This document shows, piece after piece, positions 1,040 through 11,599 of a stretch of DNA of 64,000 nucleotides (its first letter is position 1; the number at the start of each line of letters is the position of its first letter). A program made the translations under genes and the position numbers. Source of the stretch: Streptomyces mirabilis. GTDB lineage: Bacteria; Actinomycetota; Actinomycetes; Streptomycetales; Streptomycetaceae. The stretch is from contig NZ_CP074102.1 in NCBI RefSeq assembly GCF_018310535.1, forward strand, positions 8,184,001-8,248,000, written 5' to 3'. The notes under the pieces were generated by a model. It searched no databases and was not told the DNA's origin. It saw only the letters and a list, made by a program, of their open reading frames with translations.

Positions 1040-2765
1040 GCGGGCGGGGACGGCGAGCCGTCCTGCCCCCGGCCGATCACCGCAGCGAGCCGCCGCTGGC
1101 GCCGGACGGGCTTGTGGTGACCGTGGGCAACAAGGCCGGCTACAAGATGGAGTTCAACTTCGCCGAGCTGCCCGTTGCCGGTCCGATGCAACGGTCCCTG
1201 GCGGTCGTTTTCACCGCCCAGTCGCGTCGCTGGAAGAGCCATAGCACCGCGAGGACCTCCTGGAAAAAGTTGATGATCTTCGCGCGGTTCCTGTCCGGGT
1301 TGGACCAACCGCCGCAGGATCTGGATGAGCTGACCGCGGCGATGCTCAAGCGCTGGCGAGCCCAGCATGTCGCCACAAACACCGGCAAGGTCACGCTGTC
1401 GTCGGTCCGCACGCTCTTGCAGAGGGACCCCCGGCTGGGCCGCGGGCCAGTGGCTGAGGAACTTGCCTGCCGCGTCCCCAAGCCCACGCCGAGCAAGCAG
1501 TCCTACGATGAGCCGGACCGCGAACGCGTGGTGCTGGCCGCACAGCGGCAGTTCCGGGCCGCACGGCTGCGGATCCGCGAGAACACCGAACTGCTGGAGC
1601 GGTGGCGGTCTGGCCAGCTGTCTGCGGACAGCCGTGAATGGCACCTCGGCCAGATCCTGGACCATCTCGCCCGCACGGGTGACGTCCCTCGCACCGTCCA
1701 GGGGGGCGTGAAGAACCGCCGTCTTTTGGGCCGCACAACGGGGGTCGAGTTGTTGTGGGGCCGGCTGTTTCTGACCCGCGGAGAACTGACTGCCCTGGCG
1801 GTCCTGTTGACCGACCGGTTCGGATGGAATCTGTCCGTCTACGACCGCATGCCGACCCCGACCAGAGCTCCGTCGGTCGGCGAGACGACGACCGTGACCT
1901 ACCAGGTTCAGGTCGAGAAACGCCGGGTGGGCGGCGGGCGCTGGTTCTCCACGGAGAACATCAGCGATTCGGGTGCCGACTCTCCCGGCCGGCTGATCAC
2001 CCAGGCAATCGAGGCGACCGCACACGGCCGCGCGCTGGCCGCACGGCTGGCGCCGGGACACGGTCTGCTGATGACGGCCCGCACACATCGGGTCGGGGTG
2101 GAGGAGAAGGACCTGGACCGGCCGCGCCCGGTCGGCCCCCTGGTTTTCGGTGTCTCGATGACTGACGGAAAGAGCTGGGCGAACAGTCATCAACTGGGCG
2201 GATCGCCGTTCCAGCGGACCCGCAGGACGACGGTGACCCGCGAAGGCCGTCCTCTGCAGCACTCCAGAGGCACCCACGAGAGCGTTTATGTCCTGCCCGA
2301 CCAGCGTGTCCAGCGCGCCGCACAGGGCGTCATCGCCGACGGAGCCGATGAAGCTCTCCAGCAGGCCCGGAACAGCGTGTTCGGGGGCCATGTCCGCCAG
2401 ACGCCGGACCCGCGGCACTTGGAAACAGCGACAGCGGACTGCGCGGACGAGGAGTCCGGCCCCTGGCCGGCTCCGGACGGCGGATGCGGTGCGGATTTCC
2501 TGCTCTGCTTGGCTTGCCCGAACGCCCACGTCCACCCGGGCCACCATGCCCGGCTCGCCCACCTCCACCAACGGCTGCAAAGCCTGCGTTCGGCTCTGCC
2601 GGATCAGGCCTGGAACAAGCACTGGCGCGATCACTTGCTGCGGCTGGAGGACCTCCGCGACGACAACCAGAAGGTCGGACCAGCTGCCTGGAATGCCGCA
2701 CTGGCCCAGGTCAGCGACGCCGACCGCACTCTCATCGACCTTCTCCTGGAAGGAGTTCTCGCCCC

Positions 2766-2769
<4 letters not shown>
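1036..2769 (+). CDS. Divergent tyrosine-recombinase-like protein, second gene of the cassette
   Basis: 577 aa from a GTG that overlaps the previous stop, with an AAGGA box about 6 bp upstream. The N-terminal third looks like a core-binding domain (GLDQPPQDLDELTAAMLKRW, residues about 91-110). The C-terminal half carries HSRGTHESVYV (about 415-425), a plausible degenerate His-Arg-His-Tyr catalytic stretch, followed by a Cys/His cluster (CLACPNAHVHPGHH). It ends by a 4-bp overlap with the next gene. Neighbours and coupling indicate a role in the same recombination complex. Its own catalytic competence cannot be judged by eye; it could be a structural partner. Confidence 0.6.
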
Positions 2770-5311
<2,542 letters not shown>

Positions 5312-7209: not shown

Positions 7210-7601
7210 GCGAGGCCGACGGGCGAGCCGCCGAGCCGAGCGCGGGGCTGATCGACTCGCAGTCCGTCCGCACTGCAGACACCGTGCCCGCCGCGACCCG
7301 GGGCTTCGACGCGGGCAAAAAGATCAAAGGACGCAAGCGATTCATCGTCACCGACACCCTCGGCCTGCTCCTGGCCGTCCACGTTGTTGCCGCGAACGTC
7401 CAGGACCGCGACGGCGGTCGTCGCCCGCTGCTCTGGACTCGCCTTGACCACCCGGGCGTCCTAAAAGTCTGGGCTGACCAGGGCTTCGCCGGCCGCTTGG
7501 TCGACTGGACCGCCATCATCCTCGGCCGCGAGCTGGAGATCGTCCGCAAATCCCCCGACCAGCGCGGTTTCCAGGTCCAACCCAAGCGGTGGGCTGTGGA
7601 G
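7209..7601 (+). pseudogene. IS5-family transposase, middle part, interrupted at codon GAG 7599-7601
   Basis: The frame through IDSQSVRTADTVPAATRGFD (from 7251), GKKIKGRKRFIVTDTLGLLL, ADQGFAGRL and RGFQVQPKRWAVE is a classic IS5-type DDE core: the first Asp in IDSQS, the second near KVWADQGFAG. The 5' third of the gene is missing. It stops being transposase exactly at 7601 and resumes in frame at 10093-10095 (GAG) with RTFSWITAHRRLARDYE. The serine-recombinase element between them is therefore an insertion. Confidence 0.85.
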
Positions 7602-7608
7602 ATCTGTC

Positions 7609-7627
7609 AAGCACAGTGCACTCATGG
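7609..7627 (+). repeat. Left arm of the deduced attP (inverted repeat)
   Basis: AAGCACAGTGCACTCATGG matches the reverse complement of 10066-10084 at 16 of 19 positions. The recombinase stop codon (7622-7624) lies inside this arm, so the gene runs to the very edge of the element. Confidence 0.8.
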
Positions 7628-9784
7628 AGTCTGTTGCTCCGCTGTTTCGGCGGTCTCGGTCCAGATGCGGCGGCTGTACCAGCCAGGCGGACGGGTCCGG
7701 CGTTCGCGGAGTTCGTCGAGTTCTCGCTGGTCGGCGTGGGCGATGAGCCGGTGAGGCCAGCAGCTCTCCCGGCGGGTGGTGATCCAGCCGCGGTTGATCC
7801 AGGCGTAGAGGGTGGAGGTGGTCATGTCCAGCTCGGCGGCCAGGTGCTTGAGCCACCACTCGTCCGGGCCGGGCTCCTCGCCCGGTGGTGCGGGGCGGTG
7901 CTGGTGGACACGGCCTGCGGGGCAGGCGAGGCGGCGCATGAGGTCGCGGACGGTGGCTGCGGAGATCCGTTTGCCGCCCTTCGCGGGCCGGAAGCCCTCG
8001 GCCTGAAGGCGGTCGGCGATCCCGTTGGCTCCTATGCCCTGGCCTGCGAGTTCGCGGATCCGATCGGTCAGTTGCGGGTAGTAGCTGAGCTGTTGAAGCC
8101 GCTGGACCGGGCGGATAACCTCTCCCGCCGTAGTGGTCCCGCCGGCCCAGACGATCGTGACCTTCACTTGCTCGCTGGTGCCGAGCACGGTGACGACGAC
8201 CTTGTCGACGACCGCGCGGATGATCTCCTTGCGGTCCGCTGTCGTGGTGCTGTGCGCACGCCACAAACCCTCGATGTCGCCGGCCAGAGCCGTGATGGTC
8301 TGCCGCTCGGCCGGAGTGAGGATGTGCGGACTGCTGCGGGTGAACCGGTCGTAGTCCTCGCCAAGCCTCTGCTGGACGGCCAGGGCGCCCTCCCACTCCT
8401 TCTCCAACTGGCGTACGACCAGGCGGTTCTCCGGCTCGGCGAGGTGATGGCTGCGACGGGCCCGGTCAGCGTCCTGCGCGGCGCGTTCCAGCCGCTGCGC
8501 CCACAGCCGTTCCAGCTCGGCCCGCTCGGCCAGGACCTGGTCGGCCGCGCGCAGGGACACCTCGACGGCGGCGGGCGTCAGTGCCGCGAGGACCTGCTGT
8601 TCGACGAAGGCGTCCACGCAGGCGGAGTTGAGCAGCTGGCAGCTCTTCTGGGCGCCGTAGTTGGTCATGTCCCGGGCGCACACGTATTCGGGCAGGGCCT
8701 TGCTGTGCTGGGTGTGGTAGCGCACGCTCATGCGCCGGTTGCAGCGTCCGCAGTGCACCAGCCCGGCCGTGAGCGCGGGGCCGCCTCGTATCGCGCCCAT
8801 GGCTTCGGCGCGGGCGCGGTTGGCCGCCAGTTTCGCCTCGTTCGTCTCGAACTGGGCGACGGTGATGTAGGCGGGCAGGACGTTCGGGATCATCACATGC
8901 CATCCGTCCCGGGAGCGGACGACCCGTCCGGTGCTCGGCCGGGCCGGGTCCTGGCGGCGCGGGTCGACCCGGCGCCGCCCGTAGGCATAGATGCCGGCAT
9001 ACGCGGGATTGTGCAGCAGGGTCTGCAGCGTCATCCGGTTCGGCCTTCGCCATTCCAGGGTGCCCTTGTCCGGCCCCTCCCGCAGCCGGATGCCCAACTG
9101 GATGTCATGGTCGACGAGATAGCGCAGGACACCGTGCAAGGTGCCGAGCCGCTCGAACTGCGCGAAGACCAGGCGGATCACGGTCTGCACCTGCTCGTCC
9201 GGATCAAAGGCGACCTCCCCCGACGGGCGGCGGACGTAACCGCTGGGCAGAGGGAAGGCCAGCTCGCCGCGGCGGGCCTTGTTCAGGCGCCCGCTCCACA
9301 TCCGCTGCTTGATCAGGTGGAGTTCGGCCTCGCTCATCGTGCCCTTGAGCCCCAGCAGCAGCCGGTCGTTGTACTCGCCCGGGTCGTAGACCCCGTCGGT
9401 GTCCGCGAGCACCGCACCCGACAGGGCGCACAGCTCGATCAGCTGGTACCAGTCCCTGCCGGAGCGGGCCAGACGGGACATCTCGATCCCCAGCACGAGA
9501 CCGACGTGGTCCAGCCCGATCTCGGTGACCAGACGCTGGAAGCCGGTGCGGGCCACCGCGCTCGACCCCGACTTGCCCAGGTCCTCGTCGATCACCAGGA
9601 CCCGGTCCGCCTGCCAGCCCAGCGCGACCGCCCGGTCCACCAGGGCGTACTGCAACCGGGTCGACTCCTGGTGCTCGACGAGCTGCTGACGGGTGGACTG
9701 GCGGACATAGATCACTGCGAGTCGCTGCAGGTGACGGTCGTCGATCTTGCTGCCGGGCCGCTCCCACGGCATCACCGAGGTCAT
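7622..9784 (-). CDS. Large serine recombinase (resolvase/invertase family)
   Basis: 720 aa. The N-terminal resolvase domain starts LAVIYVRQSTRQQL, with the nucleophile Ser at about residue 30 and the helper motif MSRLARSGRDWYQLIEL at about 110. A recombinase domain follows (TLQTLLHNPAYAGIYAYGRR). Next are a zinc ribbon (CGRCNRRM ... CARDMTN ... SCQLLN), a coiled coil, and a C-terminal helix-turn-helix extension (LAAELDMTTSTLYAWINRGW). It should catalyse staggered cutting and 180-degree rotation of strands for excision and integration of the element around it. The ATG overlaps the upstream small ORF by ATGA, so the two are probably co-translated. No frameshift or missing motif is apparent. Confidence 0.93.
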   Translation of the reverse strand: MTSVMPWERPGSKIDDRHLQRLAVIYVRQSTRQQLVEHQESTRLQYALVDRAVALGWQADRVLVIDEDLGKSGSSAVARTGFQRLVTEIGLDHVGLVLGIEMSRLARSGRDWYQLIELCALSGAVLADTDGVYDPGEYNDRLLLGLKGTMSEAELHLIKQRMWSGRLNKARRGELAFPLPSGYVRRPSGEVAFDPDEQVQTVIRLVFAQFERLGTLHGVLRYLVDHDIQLGIRLREGPDKGTLEWRRPNRMTLQTLLHNPAYAGIYAYGRRRVDPRRQDPARPSTGRVVRSRDGWHVMIPNVLPAYITVAQFETNEAKLAANRARAEAMGAIRGGPALTAGLVHCGRCNRRMSVRYHTQHSKALPEYVCARDMTNYGAQKSCQLLNSACVDAFVEQQVLAALTPAAVEVSLRAADQVLAERAELERLWAQRLERAAQDADRARRSHHLAEPENRLVVRQLEKEWEGALAVQQRLGEDYDRFTRSSPHILTPAERQTITALAGDIEGLWRAHSTTTADRKEIIRAVVDKVVVTVLGTSEQVKVTIVWAGGTTTAGEVIRPVQRLQQLSYYPQLTDRIRELAGQGIGANGIADRLQAEGFRPAKGGKRISAATVRDLMRRLACPAGRVHQHRPAPPGEEPGPDEWWLKHLAAELDMTTSTLYAWINRGWITTRRESCWPHRLIAHADQRELDELRERRTRPPGWYSRRIWTETAETAEQQTP

Positions 9785-9912
9785 CGCCGGTCCCGCTCAC
9801 TCGCCGTCGCGGCGGCCGACAACGCGCGGCTCGCCAGCCGCGCCAACTGCCCCACCACCGCCTGCCGGTTCACCTCCGGCAGTGCCGCCCACACCTGCCC
9901 GTCCGGCACCAC
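9781..9912 (-). CDS. Small ORF coupled to the serine recombinase
   Basis: 43 aa from GTG 9912, reading VVPDGQVWAALPEVNRQAVV, GQLARLASRAL and on to a TGA that overlaps the recombinase ATG (ATGA). The helical VWAALPEVNRQAVVGQLARL pattern is like the short partner proteins found upstream of actinobacterial recombinases. No Shine-Dalgarno is obvious; it may begin as part of the ORF starting at 10069 through a frameshift. The coupling is seen; the function is unknown. Confidence 0.5.
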   Translation of the reverse strand: MVPDGQVWAALPEVNRQAVVGQLARLASRALSAAATASERDRR

Positions 9913-10069
9913 CGGAATCGTTGTCTGGGGCCGACGTCACTGTCGTCTCGCATGACGACCCGTTCCCCTCGTCACTCAGCCGGCCCCGCAACCGTTGGGC
10001 CACAGCGACCAACCGCTGCAGACCCTCACGGCCAATTATCGGCGTCCGCTCACTGCTTTGACTATCCAT
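9797..10069 (-). CDS. Possible small leader ORF at the right end of the serine-recombinase element
   Basis: 90 aa from ATG 10069, whose start codon lies inside the right inverted repeat. Only the first 37 or so residues (MDSQSSERTPIIGREG, LQRLVAVAQRLRGRLSDEGN) look protein-like. The rest is Gly/Ala-rich and shadows the GTG-9912 ORF in another frame. Most likely a short gene, or a fusion made by frameshift with the 9781-9912 ORF. If transcribed, its promoter would lie outside the element or across the joined attP. Confidence 0.35.
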   Translation of the reverse strand: MDSQSSERTPIIGREGLQRLVAVAQRLRGRLSDEGNGSSCETTVTSAPDNDSGGAGRAGVGGTAGGEPAGGGGAVGAAGEPRVVGRRDGE

Positions 10070-10084
10070 AAGCGCAGTGTGCTT
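10066..10084 (-). repeat. Right arm of the deduced attP (inverted repeat)
   Basis: Reads AAGCACACTGCGCTTATGG on the minus strand, 16/19 identical to the left arm at 7609-7627. It is separated from the TGGAG core (10091-10095) by 6 bp. Confidence 0.8.
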
Positions 10085-10090
10085 GGGCGA

Positions 10091-10275
10091 TGGAGCGCAC
10101 GTTCTCGTGGATCACCGCCCACCGGCGCCTTGCCCGGGACTACGAGACCAGCCCGGCACACTCGGAGTCGATGATCCGATGGGCGATGATCGACATCATG
10201 GTTCGCCGCCTCACACGCAGAGGAACGGCTTCACGGCCAGGGCCCCGACCGCTCACGCGGATCCCTTCTCGGTGA
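10091..10275 (+). pseudogene. IS5-family transposase, 3' part
   Basis: Continues the gene broken at 7601: GAG CGC ACG gives ERTFSWITAHRRLARDYE, then MIRWAMIDIMVRRLTR and a basic tail to 10275. RTFSW...RRLARDYE carries the catalytic Glu region of IS5 transposases. It is in the same frame as the 7209-7601 part once the intervening element is removed. The 5' third is lost, so the host IS was probably already dead or later deleted. Confidence 0.85.
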
Positions 10276-10601: not shown

Positions 10602-11132
10602 TCACGGGAGGGCTGGCAGGCTGCGTAACCAGAGGATGGATCCGCGCAGGTGGAGTCCTGCGGCGTAGCTCTCGGATGTCTTGTCGTACCGGCTGGCCAG
10701 TCCCCGCCATTCCTTGAACTTGTTGATGGCGCGCTCGACCGTGTTGCGATCTTTGTAGAGCGTGGCGTCGTGGCTGACCGGGCGGCCGCCGGAACGTCCC
10801 TTCTTCCTGCGGTTGGCGGCCTGGTCGGTCTTTTCCGGGATCACTGCCTTGATGTTGCGTCTGTGCAGGTGGGCGCGGTTGGCGCGGGAGGAGTACGCCT
10901 TGTCTCCGGCGACCGCGTCCGGCCGTGTCCTGGGGCGGCCGACCGGGACGCGCACCTTGATCTTCTTGAGGACCGGGATGAAGCGCGGGCTGTCCGCGGA
11001 CTGCCCGGGGGTGAGGATGATGGCCAGCGGGCGGCAGCGTCGCTCGACGGCGAGGTGGACCTTGCTGGTGAGCCCGCCCCGGGAGCGGCCCAGTTCGGCG
11101 GCCCGCAGTCGGGCCCTGCGGCGTCGGCGCAC
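10602..11132 (-). CDS. IS5-family transposase, C-terminal ORF (OrfB)
   Basis: 176 aa ORF carrying the second Asp and the Glu of the DDE triad: GGLTSKVHLAVERRCRPLAI, VAGDKAYSSRANRAHLHRRN and TVERAINKFKEWRGLASRYD. The first ATG is unlikely to be a real start. Translation is expected to arrive from OrfA by frameshifting, because the frame is open upstream of the ATG through the poly-A/C stretch near 11183-11200. Acts on the ends of its own IS. Confidence 0.85.
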   Translation of the reverse strand: MRRRRRARLRAAELGRSRGGLTSKVHLAVERRCRPLAIILTPGQSADSPRFIPVLKKIKVRVPVGRPRTRPDAVAGDKAYSSRANRAHLHRRNIKAVIPEKTDQAANRRKKGRSGGRPVSHDATLYKDRNTVERAINKFKEWRGLASRYDKTSESYAAGLHLRGSILWLRSLPALP

Positions 11133-11182
11133 GGCGCGGCGCTGTTCCCGCTCGGGGTCCTCCCTGTCCGCGGACCCCTCAC

Positions 11183-11599
11183 CTACGGGGTTGTTTTGCC
11201 CCTTTGCTGCAGCCCCTTTTCTTCCGCCACGGCCTTCTCCAGGTCCTCAAGGAGCTCCGGGTCGACGACCATGCCCGCCGCGTGGTGATGCGCGCGGGCA
11301 ACGGTCGAGTCCACGCTGACCAGGCTGAGATCGACATCGTCGCGGGCCGCCGCCTCGGCGATCATCGTTTCCATGAGGGCCTGGAAGACTTCGCCATGCG
11401 CCCACATCCGGAACCGGTCGTAGATCGTCGACCAGGAGCCGTAGCTCTCCGGCACATCCCGCCAGGGGCTGCCGGTGCGGAACCGCCACATCACCGCGTT
11501 GAAGTAGCTGCGCAGGTCAGGGATCGGTCCGAACGCCCCCAGCGGCAGGTGCGGCTCGATCAACTCCCACTCGGCATCGGTCAGATCACCACGAGTCAC
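11183..11599 (-). CDS. IS5-family transposase, N-terminal ORF (OrfA)
   Basis: 138 aa starting MTRGDLTDAEWELIEPHLPL, followed by YFNAVMWRFRTGSPWRDVPE and the first catalytic Asp in LVSVDSTVARAHHHAAG. It ends shortly after a run with AAAA and CCCC (GGGGCAAAACAACCCC on the coding strand). That is a credible slippage site for joining to the 10602-11132 ORF. Confidence 0.85.
   Translation of the reverse strand: MTRGDLTDAEWELIEPHLPLGAFGPIPDLRSYFNAVMWRFRTGSPWRDVPESYGSWSTIYDRFRMWAHGEVFQALMETMIAEAAARDDVDLSLVSVDSTVARAHHHAAGMVVDPELLEDLEKAVAEEKGLQQRGKTTP

Follow-up and report, generated by a model that had tools for sequence, protein, structure and literature searches.

We predict that the window, the 64,000-nucleotide stretch of Streptomyces mirabilis DNA analyzed here, carries a self-contained mobile element driven by its own large serine recombinase (LSR). 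The element very probably belongs to a clade specialized on the GA that opens the catalytic glutamate codon in several families of DDE transposase genes. The unit lies within an IS5-family transposase gene, and the features on which this reading draws are as follows.

7284..7601, + strand: left half of an IS5-family transposase, ending R-W-A-V-E (PF01609, NF033580)
7599..7600, no strand: left crossover dinucleotide GA, which supplies bases 1-2 of GAG (7599-7601), the codon for the likely catalytic Glu in the IS5 transposase
7599..10092, no strand: mobile unit, 2,494 bp with one core GA counted (equally 7601-10094), placed by arm symmetry, relatives, and uninterrupted relatives of the host IS
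7609..7627, no strand: left inverted arm, attP half, with the recombinase stop codon inside it
7622..9784, - strand: large serine recombinase, 720 aa (Resolvase PF00239, Recombinase PF07508, zinc-ribbon PF13408)
9781..9912, - strand: small ORF 2 (VWAALPEVNRQAVVGQL), conserved, its stop overlapping the recombinase start
9797..10069, - strand: small ORF 1, with an N-terminal part (PIIGREGL.RLV) kept in relatives
9927..9930, - strand: C-run (CCCC on this strand) where the conserved frame passes from ORF 1 to ORF 2, a candidate frameshift site
10066..10084, no strand: right inverted arm, attP half, with the ATG of small ORF 1 inside it
10093..10094, no strand: right crossover dinucleotide GA, in the GAG codon 10093-10095
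10093..10275, + strand: right half of the same transposase, opening with the same Glu codon (ERTFSWITAHRRLARDYE; NF033580, searched on 10090-10275)

Ends and attachment arms

As a preliminary description had reported, TGGAG is present at both junctions (7597-7601 and 10091-10095). The inverted arms that it noted are also real: 16 of 19 positions pair between 7609-7627 and 10066-10084 when aligned by hand, and 18 of 24 match when positions 5-28 are counted outward from the core GA. None of 20,000 letter shuffles of the arm pair reached 18, and the best pair anywhere across 30 shuffled searches had 11-16 matches, compared with the 18 of 24 for the real arms. The arms are absent from the 25 longest inverted repeats listed and are visible only in an alignment centered on the junctions. 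They had been placed 6 and 7 bp from TGGAG; they do lie near the core, but when measured from GA the distance is exactly 8 bp on both sides (7601-7608 and 10085-10092). The deduced attP is symmetric around a 2-bp core that it shares with attB, the attB side being read from empty sites.

The left flank reads up to KRWAV and the right flank resumes with ERTFSW. The NCBIfam IS5 model NF033580 matches the left half to profile position 222 and the right half from 222, and the joined flanks give a single uninterrupted match and align with intact IS relatives across the junction, which bears out the expectation that precise excision rejoins the transposase frame. The host IS is decayed, as the model match in the left half starts at position 73 and contains two stops. 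A search of the window's own genome for a close intact copy found none among the candidates scored (40 of 122), the nearest being 65-71% identical. All nine intact IS relatives that were read are continuous across the site and carry no arms, the best match to an arm being 11-14 of 19. Intact IS copies already containing the arms, and recombinase relatives lacking arms at their ends, had been named beforehand as observations that would count against the element; neither was encountered, and the relatives carry arms at their ends. The observation of a serine-recombinase element with readable junctions is confirmed and its interpretation supported. Comparison of sequences establishes the ends, the core and the Glu codon.

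Genes encoded by the unit

All three LSR domains (PF00239, PF07508 and PF13408) score above the Pfam cut-offs, with the catalytic domain first. In an alignment of 13 sequences (the window recombinase and those of 12 relatives), S30, R104, R107 and four cysteines (C345, C348, C369 and C382) are invariant. We take S30 to be the catalytic serine, and R104 and R107 are presumably the active-site arginines.

The small ORFs have no Pfam or NCBIfam matches. They are conserved in relatives and are therefore probably part of the element's machinery. Of the 22 elements read, 20 have a CCCC run at a distance of 140-190 bp from the core, and translation may pass into small ORF 2 through a +1 frameshift in ORF 1. 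The recombinase and these ORFs take up the unit, so the earlier statement that it has no cargo holds for the window; no relaxase or conjugation genes are present, and no phage structural or replication genes were recognized within it. A phage origin was rejected separately: four of 50,697 phage records match, at 24-29% identity, and none covers 80% of the query.

Junctions in related elements

We examined 60 non-redundant loci that have a relative of the recombinase (LSR identity at least 49%). An element was assigned to the clade if both of its ends lay at the GA of the E codon in either of two contexts, the signature R-(3)-E or the motif NP[VI]E, and this arrangement is found at both ends of the window copy (L027). 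Both ends lie at the GA of this likely catalytic Glu codon in 28 of the 60 loci, and a single readable end does so in 17. The surviving ends of two truncated copies (L023 and L025) are likewise at the GA of this codon. Two variants use the same Glu codon with another dinucleotide, GC at both ends in L014 and CA at one end in L002. The remaining census loci are the exception L140, one that is rearranged, one read by eye and eight that are unreadable. L009 has an internal deletion, and its readable end is without GA.

L140 is a relative with pieces up to 72% identical (average 53%). Its arms surround a TA core, and its flanks are not a transposase Glu site. The rule therefore has at least one exception; L140 was left out of the tree.

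Of 33 non-redundant loci with at least 50% identity, 26 (counted by hand) had ends at the Glu when these were assigned by arm symmetry about TC/GA, without regard to reading frame. The arm references for the 60-locus census came from 23 loci picked after this result was known, so the census counts are not independent of it. Before counting, thirteen loci were dropped as overlapping stretches or as repeats of a place already represented in another collection (L047, L060, L061, L063, L065, L071, L089, L094, L102, L106, L134, L135 and L147). The plasmid records examined were 14 of the 479 in which a relative occurs. Members of the clade were found in Actinomycetota, Cyanobacteriota and Pseudomonadota.

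Target families and choice of site

Ten joined flanks searched against NCBIfam place the interrupted genes in IS5, IS701, NF041680, IS1380, IS630 and IS4. In the IS4 family, the targeted E is the E of DDE, according to the part of PMC2266710 that covers it. The targeted Glu is likely equivalent to the catalytic E in IS5, IS1380, IS630 and NF041680, and outside IS4-like families we infer that it is catalytic. The preliminary description had proposed that a transposase gene serves as attB and so offers many targets; this was right but too narrow, as the target is the likely catalytic Glu codon in several families.

In a tree of 38 recombinases, the 33 rows of this group are united in a single clade (100/99), with five distant recombinases outside it; among these distant rows the tree program warned of long-branch meeting. 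Switches of transposase family occur inside the 33-row clade. Recombinases 78-100% identical to that of the window sit in IS5 transposases that are just 34-87% identical to each other.

Transposons of the TnpX/TndX kind (Tn4451, Tn5397) are moved by their recombinase, have a GA core and use several sites per genome, and they carry cargo such as resistance genes. The window unit resembles them in its GA core and predicted recombinase-driven movement, but it has no cargo and its group's targets are mostly limited to the transposase Glu codon. A relaxed multi-target transposon of this kind, needing GA and a weak context and found in transposases through bias or the abundance of IS, would fit the GA core, the diverse attB sequences among elements, and the one GC/GC and one TA case. 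We consider this unlikely, as the same codon is nearly always used despite the 56 GA dinucleotides available in the coding sequence of an intact IS5 relative and the 88 in an intact IS701; with that many available, repeated use of one GA is therefore not chance. The attP arms are also closer to the N-side half of the family that each element targets than permuted pairings are (7.01 of 14 matches, permutation mean 5.63), with 27 of 40,320 permutations as high for 26 elements in 8 families, relatedness not corrected. DUF4368 was not found in the window recombinase by Pfam, which also argues against such a transposon; the part of PMC10083194 on the TnpX/TndX clade gives this domain for 63% of its LSRs, so it is not universal.

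Empty sites and repeated copies

The window's own genome has a second element (L028), inside an IS701 with four intact 1,450-bp copies, so that one of five copies is occupied. With the element removed, the occupied IS differs from the four intact copies by 0, 1, 0 and 0 mismatches. Read against these empty sites, insertion of the second element is base-exact. Streptomyces olivoreticuli has two identical 2,513-bp elements in different IS copies, and identity stops at the core on both sides; only two element copies were found in that genome. Other searches scored two or three candidates per genome (24 in the window's own), so copy numbers taken from them are lower bounds. Compared in this way, the elements are the product of multiple independent insertions.

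Carrier IS with clear terminal inverted repeats are three of 19 tested (L017 and L028 with 18/18, L103 with 17/18), and the repeats are probable in L113 (15/18). In the other 15 of 19, no pair of terminal repeats was clearly above shuffles, partly from truncated flanks. The clear and probable cases make transport by the carrier possible, as would be expected if the unit were a passenger gene captured long ago by one IS and carried by its transposition, with a recombinase that does not pick the site. That account is very improbable and is already contradicted by the occurrence of the unit in six transposase families, by the related recombinases in divergent IS5 transposases, by the identical elements in different IS copies, and by the four intact siblings of one carrier that lack the element. 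Least credible is a developmental switch like the skin or fdxN element, in which programmed excision turns the transposase back on: excision would restore the frame, and the recombinase has a sub-threshold match to NCBIfam XisF (84 bits, cut-off 375), but the host genes are transposase genes, one of them multi-copy with one copy in five occupied, and the window's host IS is decayed.

Proposed mode of movement

For an element moved by its own LSR, we propose that the unit, as a circle, would carry an attP of two arms symmetric about GA. The recombinase would join this attP to an attB at the GA opening the catalytic glutamate codon of a DDE transposase gene; each end would then have one GA, with no duplication of the target. 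An inserted unit would break the transposase at its active site, and exact excision would restore the gene. The mover would be the element's own recombinase, and intact siblings could in addition mobilize those carrier IS copies in which both ends are kept. Transposon genes may be favored as targets as they are numerous and their loss is harmless, and the catalytic codon could not mutate away without killing the transposon. We infer the circular form, the chemistry, a direction factor and the reason for the target choice.

The elements look like parasites of jumping genes, because most readable relatives occupy the Glu codon, in six transposase families. We lean slightly toward a broader reading, in which the cargo-free clade of Actinomycetota, Cyanobacteriota and Pseudomonadota is a parasite of DDE transposons that has been re-aimed repeatedly between families, nearly always at the catalytic Glu codon (abundant, harmless to lose, and escaped only by mutations that kill the transposon). 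Such elements would be natural brakes on IS activity, spreading through the action of their own recombinase as well as inside IS moved by intact siblings.

The niche of this mobile element would be the active site of another, which is unchangeable if the host transposon is to jump, and this suggests one way in which IS activity is restrained in bacterial genomes. The group also provides naturally occurring attP/attB pairs, dozens in all, for compact recombinases with different targets; the codon alignment hints at the bases that each recombinase reads, which is useful for studying how serine recombinase specificity changes. The proposal is directly testable because filled and empty sites coexist in one chromosome.

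Comparison with known systems

Inteins and group I introns with homing endonucleases occupy host-gene codons that are functionally essential and the most strongly conserved. The window unit shares with them a site in an essential codon; however, they splice and the host gene keeps working, whereas this element breaks its host gene.

The LSR integrases of phages and integrative elements (A118, phiC31 and Bxb1) have the same domain order, an attP symmetric about a 2-bp core, and no target duplication. In contrast to these, the window unit is 2.5 kb and without phage or conjugation genes, and the target is one codon common to several transposase families. The portion of PMC3783163 on the A118 attP places a zinc-domain motif at positions 16-24 of each half, which fall within the arms of the window unit. 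For A118, the zinc motif is reported to be shifted in attP relative to attB; a by-eye comparison of the elements here gave no clear signal of such a shift.

Among the multi-targeting LSRs of Durrant et al. 2022 (PMC10083194), as excerpted, one recombinase cluster likewise has several target gene clusters. The targets named in these excerpts are competence, magnesium-chelatase and prolyl-isomerase genes; unlike here, the excerpted main text makes no mention of transposase active sites. IS607-type elements have a serine transposase with an N-terminal DNA-binding domain, as given in the relevant part of PMC6188088, and the window recombinase (720 aa, catalytic domain N-terminal) is not of this type. 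We found no description of a recombinase element that targets the active sites of transposases in the literature covered, most subscription papers and bioRxiv lying outside it.

Distant recombinases

More distant recombinases (41 non-redundant loci, 33-48% identity) had no comparable ends except for three arm matches, and because of this they were kept out of the counts. Two of the matches (L083 and L123) read as Glu sites and the third (L141) is weak. Annotated DUF5372 and helix-turn-helix genes lie upstream in two other distant loci (L120 and L122), and in L117 and L119 the junction pieces lie in istB of IS21.

The element and the transposase it interrupts

The mobile element covers 2,494 bp between 7599 and 10094, and its single large gene encodes a serine recombinase. 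Its features are:

7622-9784, minus strand, serine recombinase of 720 amino acids (PF00239, PF07508, PF13408)
9797-10069, small ORF upstream of the recombinase
9781-9912, second small ORF, overlapping the first

The preliminary description placed the unit in an IS5-type transposase gene, and model searches bear this out. The left half of the broken transposase stops at ...PKRWAV-E, the right half starts at E-RTFSWITAHRRLARDYE, and the rejoined halves match NF033580, the IS5 model, in one stretch. The host insertion sequence (IS) is decayed; the left-half match to the model starts only at position 73 and contains two stops. Immediately to the right of the interrupted IS, an IS5-type element of two ORFs, with DUF4096, occupies 10602-11599. 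The IS5 model has 68 matches in this genome, and many of these are fragments belonging to a single copy.

Ends and core

The arms are symmetric about GA, with 8 bp from core to arm on each side and 18 of 24 positions equal; 30 shuffled searches scored 11-16, all below the real arms. Among relatives, the base preceding GA at the left junction changes with the host IS. At the right junction this base is mostly G, with T in locus L004 and A in L008, which we read as variation in attP. L012 and L018 have A as the third base of the glutamate codon at their right junctions, as if derived from the host. Streptomyces olivoreticuli has two elements, with no further copies found in that genome, that are identical at 2,513/2,513 bases. 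They occupy separate IS copies, with 66% identity between the 100-bp flanks, and the first base past the core differs on both sides. Because of the arm symmetry, the variation in junction bases and this identical pair, the core is GA. TGGAG, first proposed as the core, is present at both junctions but is too wide.

A codon as the target

We scanned one genome per species across 84,980 species, which yielded 26 loci; genome searches added more, and 14 regions were fetched from 479 plasmid records with a match. In a first pass, ends were set by arm symmetry about TC/GA with the reading frame ignored, and translated afterwards. A transposase glutamate is at the junction in 26 of the 33 non-redundant loci at ≥50% identity (hand count). 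The remaining seven are two with an altered core (L002, L014), one in which the contig stops at the core (L011), and four in which at least one end is lost or was not located (L091, L093, L095, L116).

The second pass used known arms, from 23 reference loci picked after the first pass, on all 60 non-redundant loci at ≥49%. In 28 loci both ends are at GA in a Glu codon, and either the residue four places earlier is R or the IS630 motif LNP/FNP is present; only one end is readable in 17, and it is at the GA of the Glu codon, as is the surviving end of L023 and of L025. The altered cores of L002 (GA/CA) and L014 (GC/GC) are still on the same codon. L009 has an internal deletion and a readable end without GA, and L140, with a TA core, is an exception to the rule. 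No arm match was found in nine loci, including L066, an IS630 site when read by eye. Insertion is aimed at a codon rather than at a gene.

In L014, GC replaces GA at both ends and the rejoined transposase codon becomes Ala, through either a changed core or a changed target. L140 (G1031:C52, near 2695-4769) has recognizable arms and similar outward-facing C-terminal pieces (YW..H...EH.R.YP) on both sides. The weaker relatives L083 (GYKQLLEV-E) and L123 (YAQRWKI-E) have arm matches at Glu sites of further transposases, which suggests that the habit is wider than counted.

The targeted glutamate belongs to the signature R-(3)-E. In many hosts, the main IS5 group excepted, K is found seven residues after this E; the IS630 motif is NP[VI]E. 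The IS4 family has Y-(2)-R-(3)-E-(6)-K, in which E is that of the DDE triad; IS701 is related to it and its motif is a variant (PMC2266710). From the motifs, we predict that the glutamate is also catalytic in IS5, IS1380, IS630 and NF041680. NCBIfam assigned ten joined flanks to IS5 (four proteins), IS701 (two), NF041680, IS1380, IS630 and IS4; scores were under the curated cut-offs for nine, as expected of fragments. In a slightly different set of ten, Pfam found a DDE transposase domain in eight and no match for L068 and L015. The choice of target is likely explained by the catalytic codon being the part of the transposase that is unable to change.

Empty sites

The genome encodes two full recombinases and one fragment. 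The second full recombinase (L028, C1:1262682-1264817) is 72% identical to that of the window and is inside an IS701 transposase. Its carrier IS has terminal repeats matching at 18/18 positions and is 1,450 bp once the element is subtracted. Four intact IS701 copies elsewhere in the chromosome are each 1,450 bp, with 0, 1, 0 and 0 mismatches to this sequence, and their site reads CGCATC-GA-GCACGAC (R-I-E-H-D). No close intact sibling of the window's host IS was found in its own genome, where the nearest is 65-71% identical. Elsewhere in the genus, other genomes have intact relatives, 81.5-84.3% identical, that are continuous through the site and ungapped near the junction. The annotation of one named plasmid copy is an IS5 transposase that runs across the site. 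All nine intact relatives read lack the arms (best arm match 11-14/19). Insertion is precise, without duplication, at the GA of the Glu codon. It has occurred repeatedly and independently, and movement is recent, given the identical copies and near-perfect empty sites.

One clade with changing targets

A tree was built of 38 recombinases (L140 left out, rooted for drawing only); the 33 group members form one clade (100/99), separate from five distant sequences. Within it, L013, L014 and L016 (IS5 targets) interleave with L015 and L064 (NF041680), and L090 (IS1380) groups with L103 (IS5) and L011 (NF041680); this is one clade that changes targets. Eleven elements, including that of the window, have recombinases 78-100% identical to the window's, in IS5 transposases only 34-87% identical among themselves. 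Members occur in Actinomycetota, Cyanobacteriota (L113, L114) and Pseudomonadota (L115). Within the window's genus (Streptomyces, judging by named contigs among the matches), at least 14 of 295 genomes have a match of ≥49% identity over ≥120 residues (hand count).

Proposed mechanism and small ORFs

The element would form a circle carrying attP, integrate by the recombinase alone, excise with the help of a factor, and be transported within IS copies that retain both ends. Both ends of the carrier IS are clearly kept in 3 of 19 tested and probably in one more. The enzyme belongs to a known type, and the anatomy matches serine integrases (PMC3783163). The consulted part of a large survey of large serine recombinase targets lists genes for competence, magnesium chelatase and prolyl isomerase, and does not mention transposase active sites (PMC10083194); such targeting is not described in the literature searched.

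The attP arms match the N-side half of the family that their element targets at 7.01/14 positions (mean of permuted families, 5.63), chiefly at positions 2 and 7-9, where CCA mirrors the Trp codon in hosts with R-W-x-[VI]-E. Agreement this high was reached by 27 of 40,320 permutations of families, a statistic that ignores shared ancestry; because of this, the match between arms and target family is only a lead to how the recombinase may recognise its site.

Two pieces of the small ORFs, (P)IIGREGLLRL and LPEVNRQ..V..L..LA.R, are conserved and lie in different frames. In 20 of 22 elements a run of C lies close to the frame change, at a distance of 140-190 bp from the core. A stop precedes the second piece in L013, L015 and L016, with no ATG, GTG or TTG between the two; an ATG is present there in L064, and L115 has its own ATG. 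The different frames, the nearby C-run and the second pieces lacking a start make plausible a programmed +1 frameshift at this C-run that joins the small ORFs (9781-10069) just ahead of the recombinase. From their position, our guess is that they encode a direction factor.

Distant recombinases

L120 and L122, on Rhodococcus and Caballeronia plasmids, have DUF5372, helix-turn-helix and recombinase genes in tandem; a search by arm symmetry did not find their ends. The junction pieces of two distant recombinases, L117 and L119 (Bradyrhizobium and Methylocystis plasmids), fall in istB of IS21, close to the motif GDPT.ADAILDRLVHNA; these recombinases may represent a second clade, one that targets a different transposition gene.
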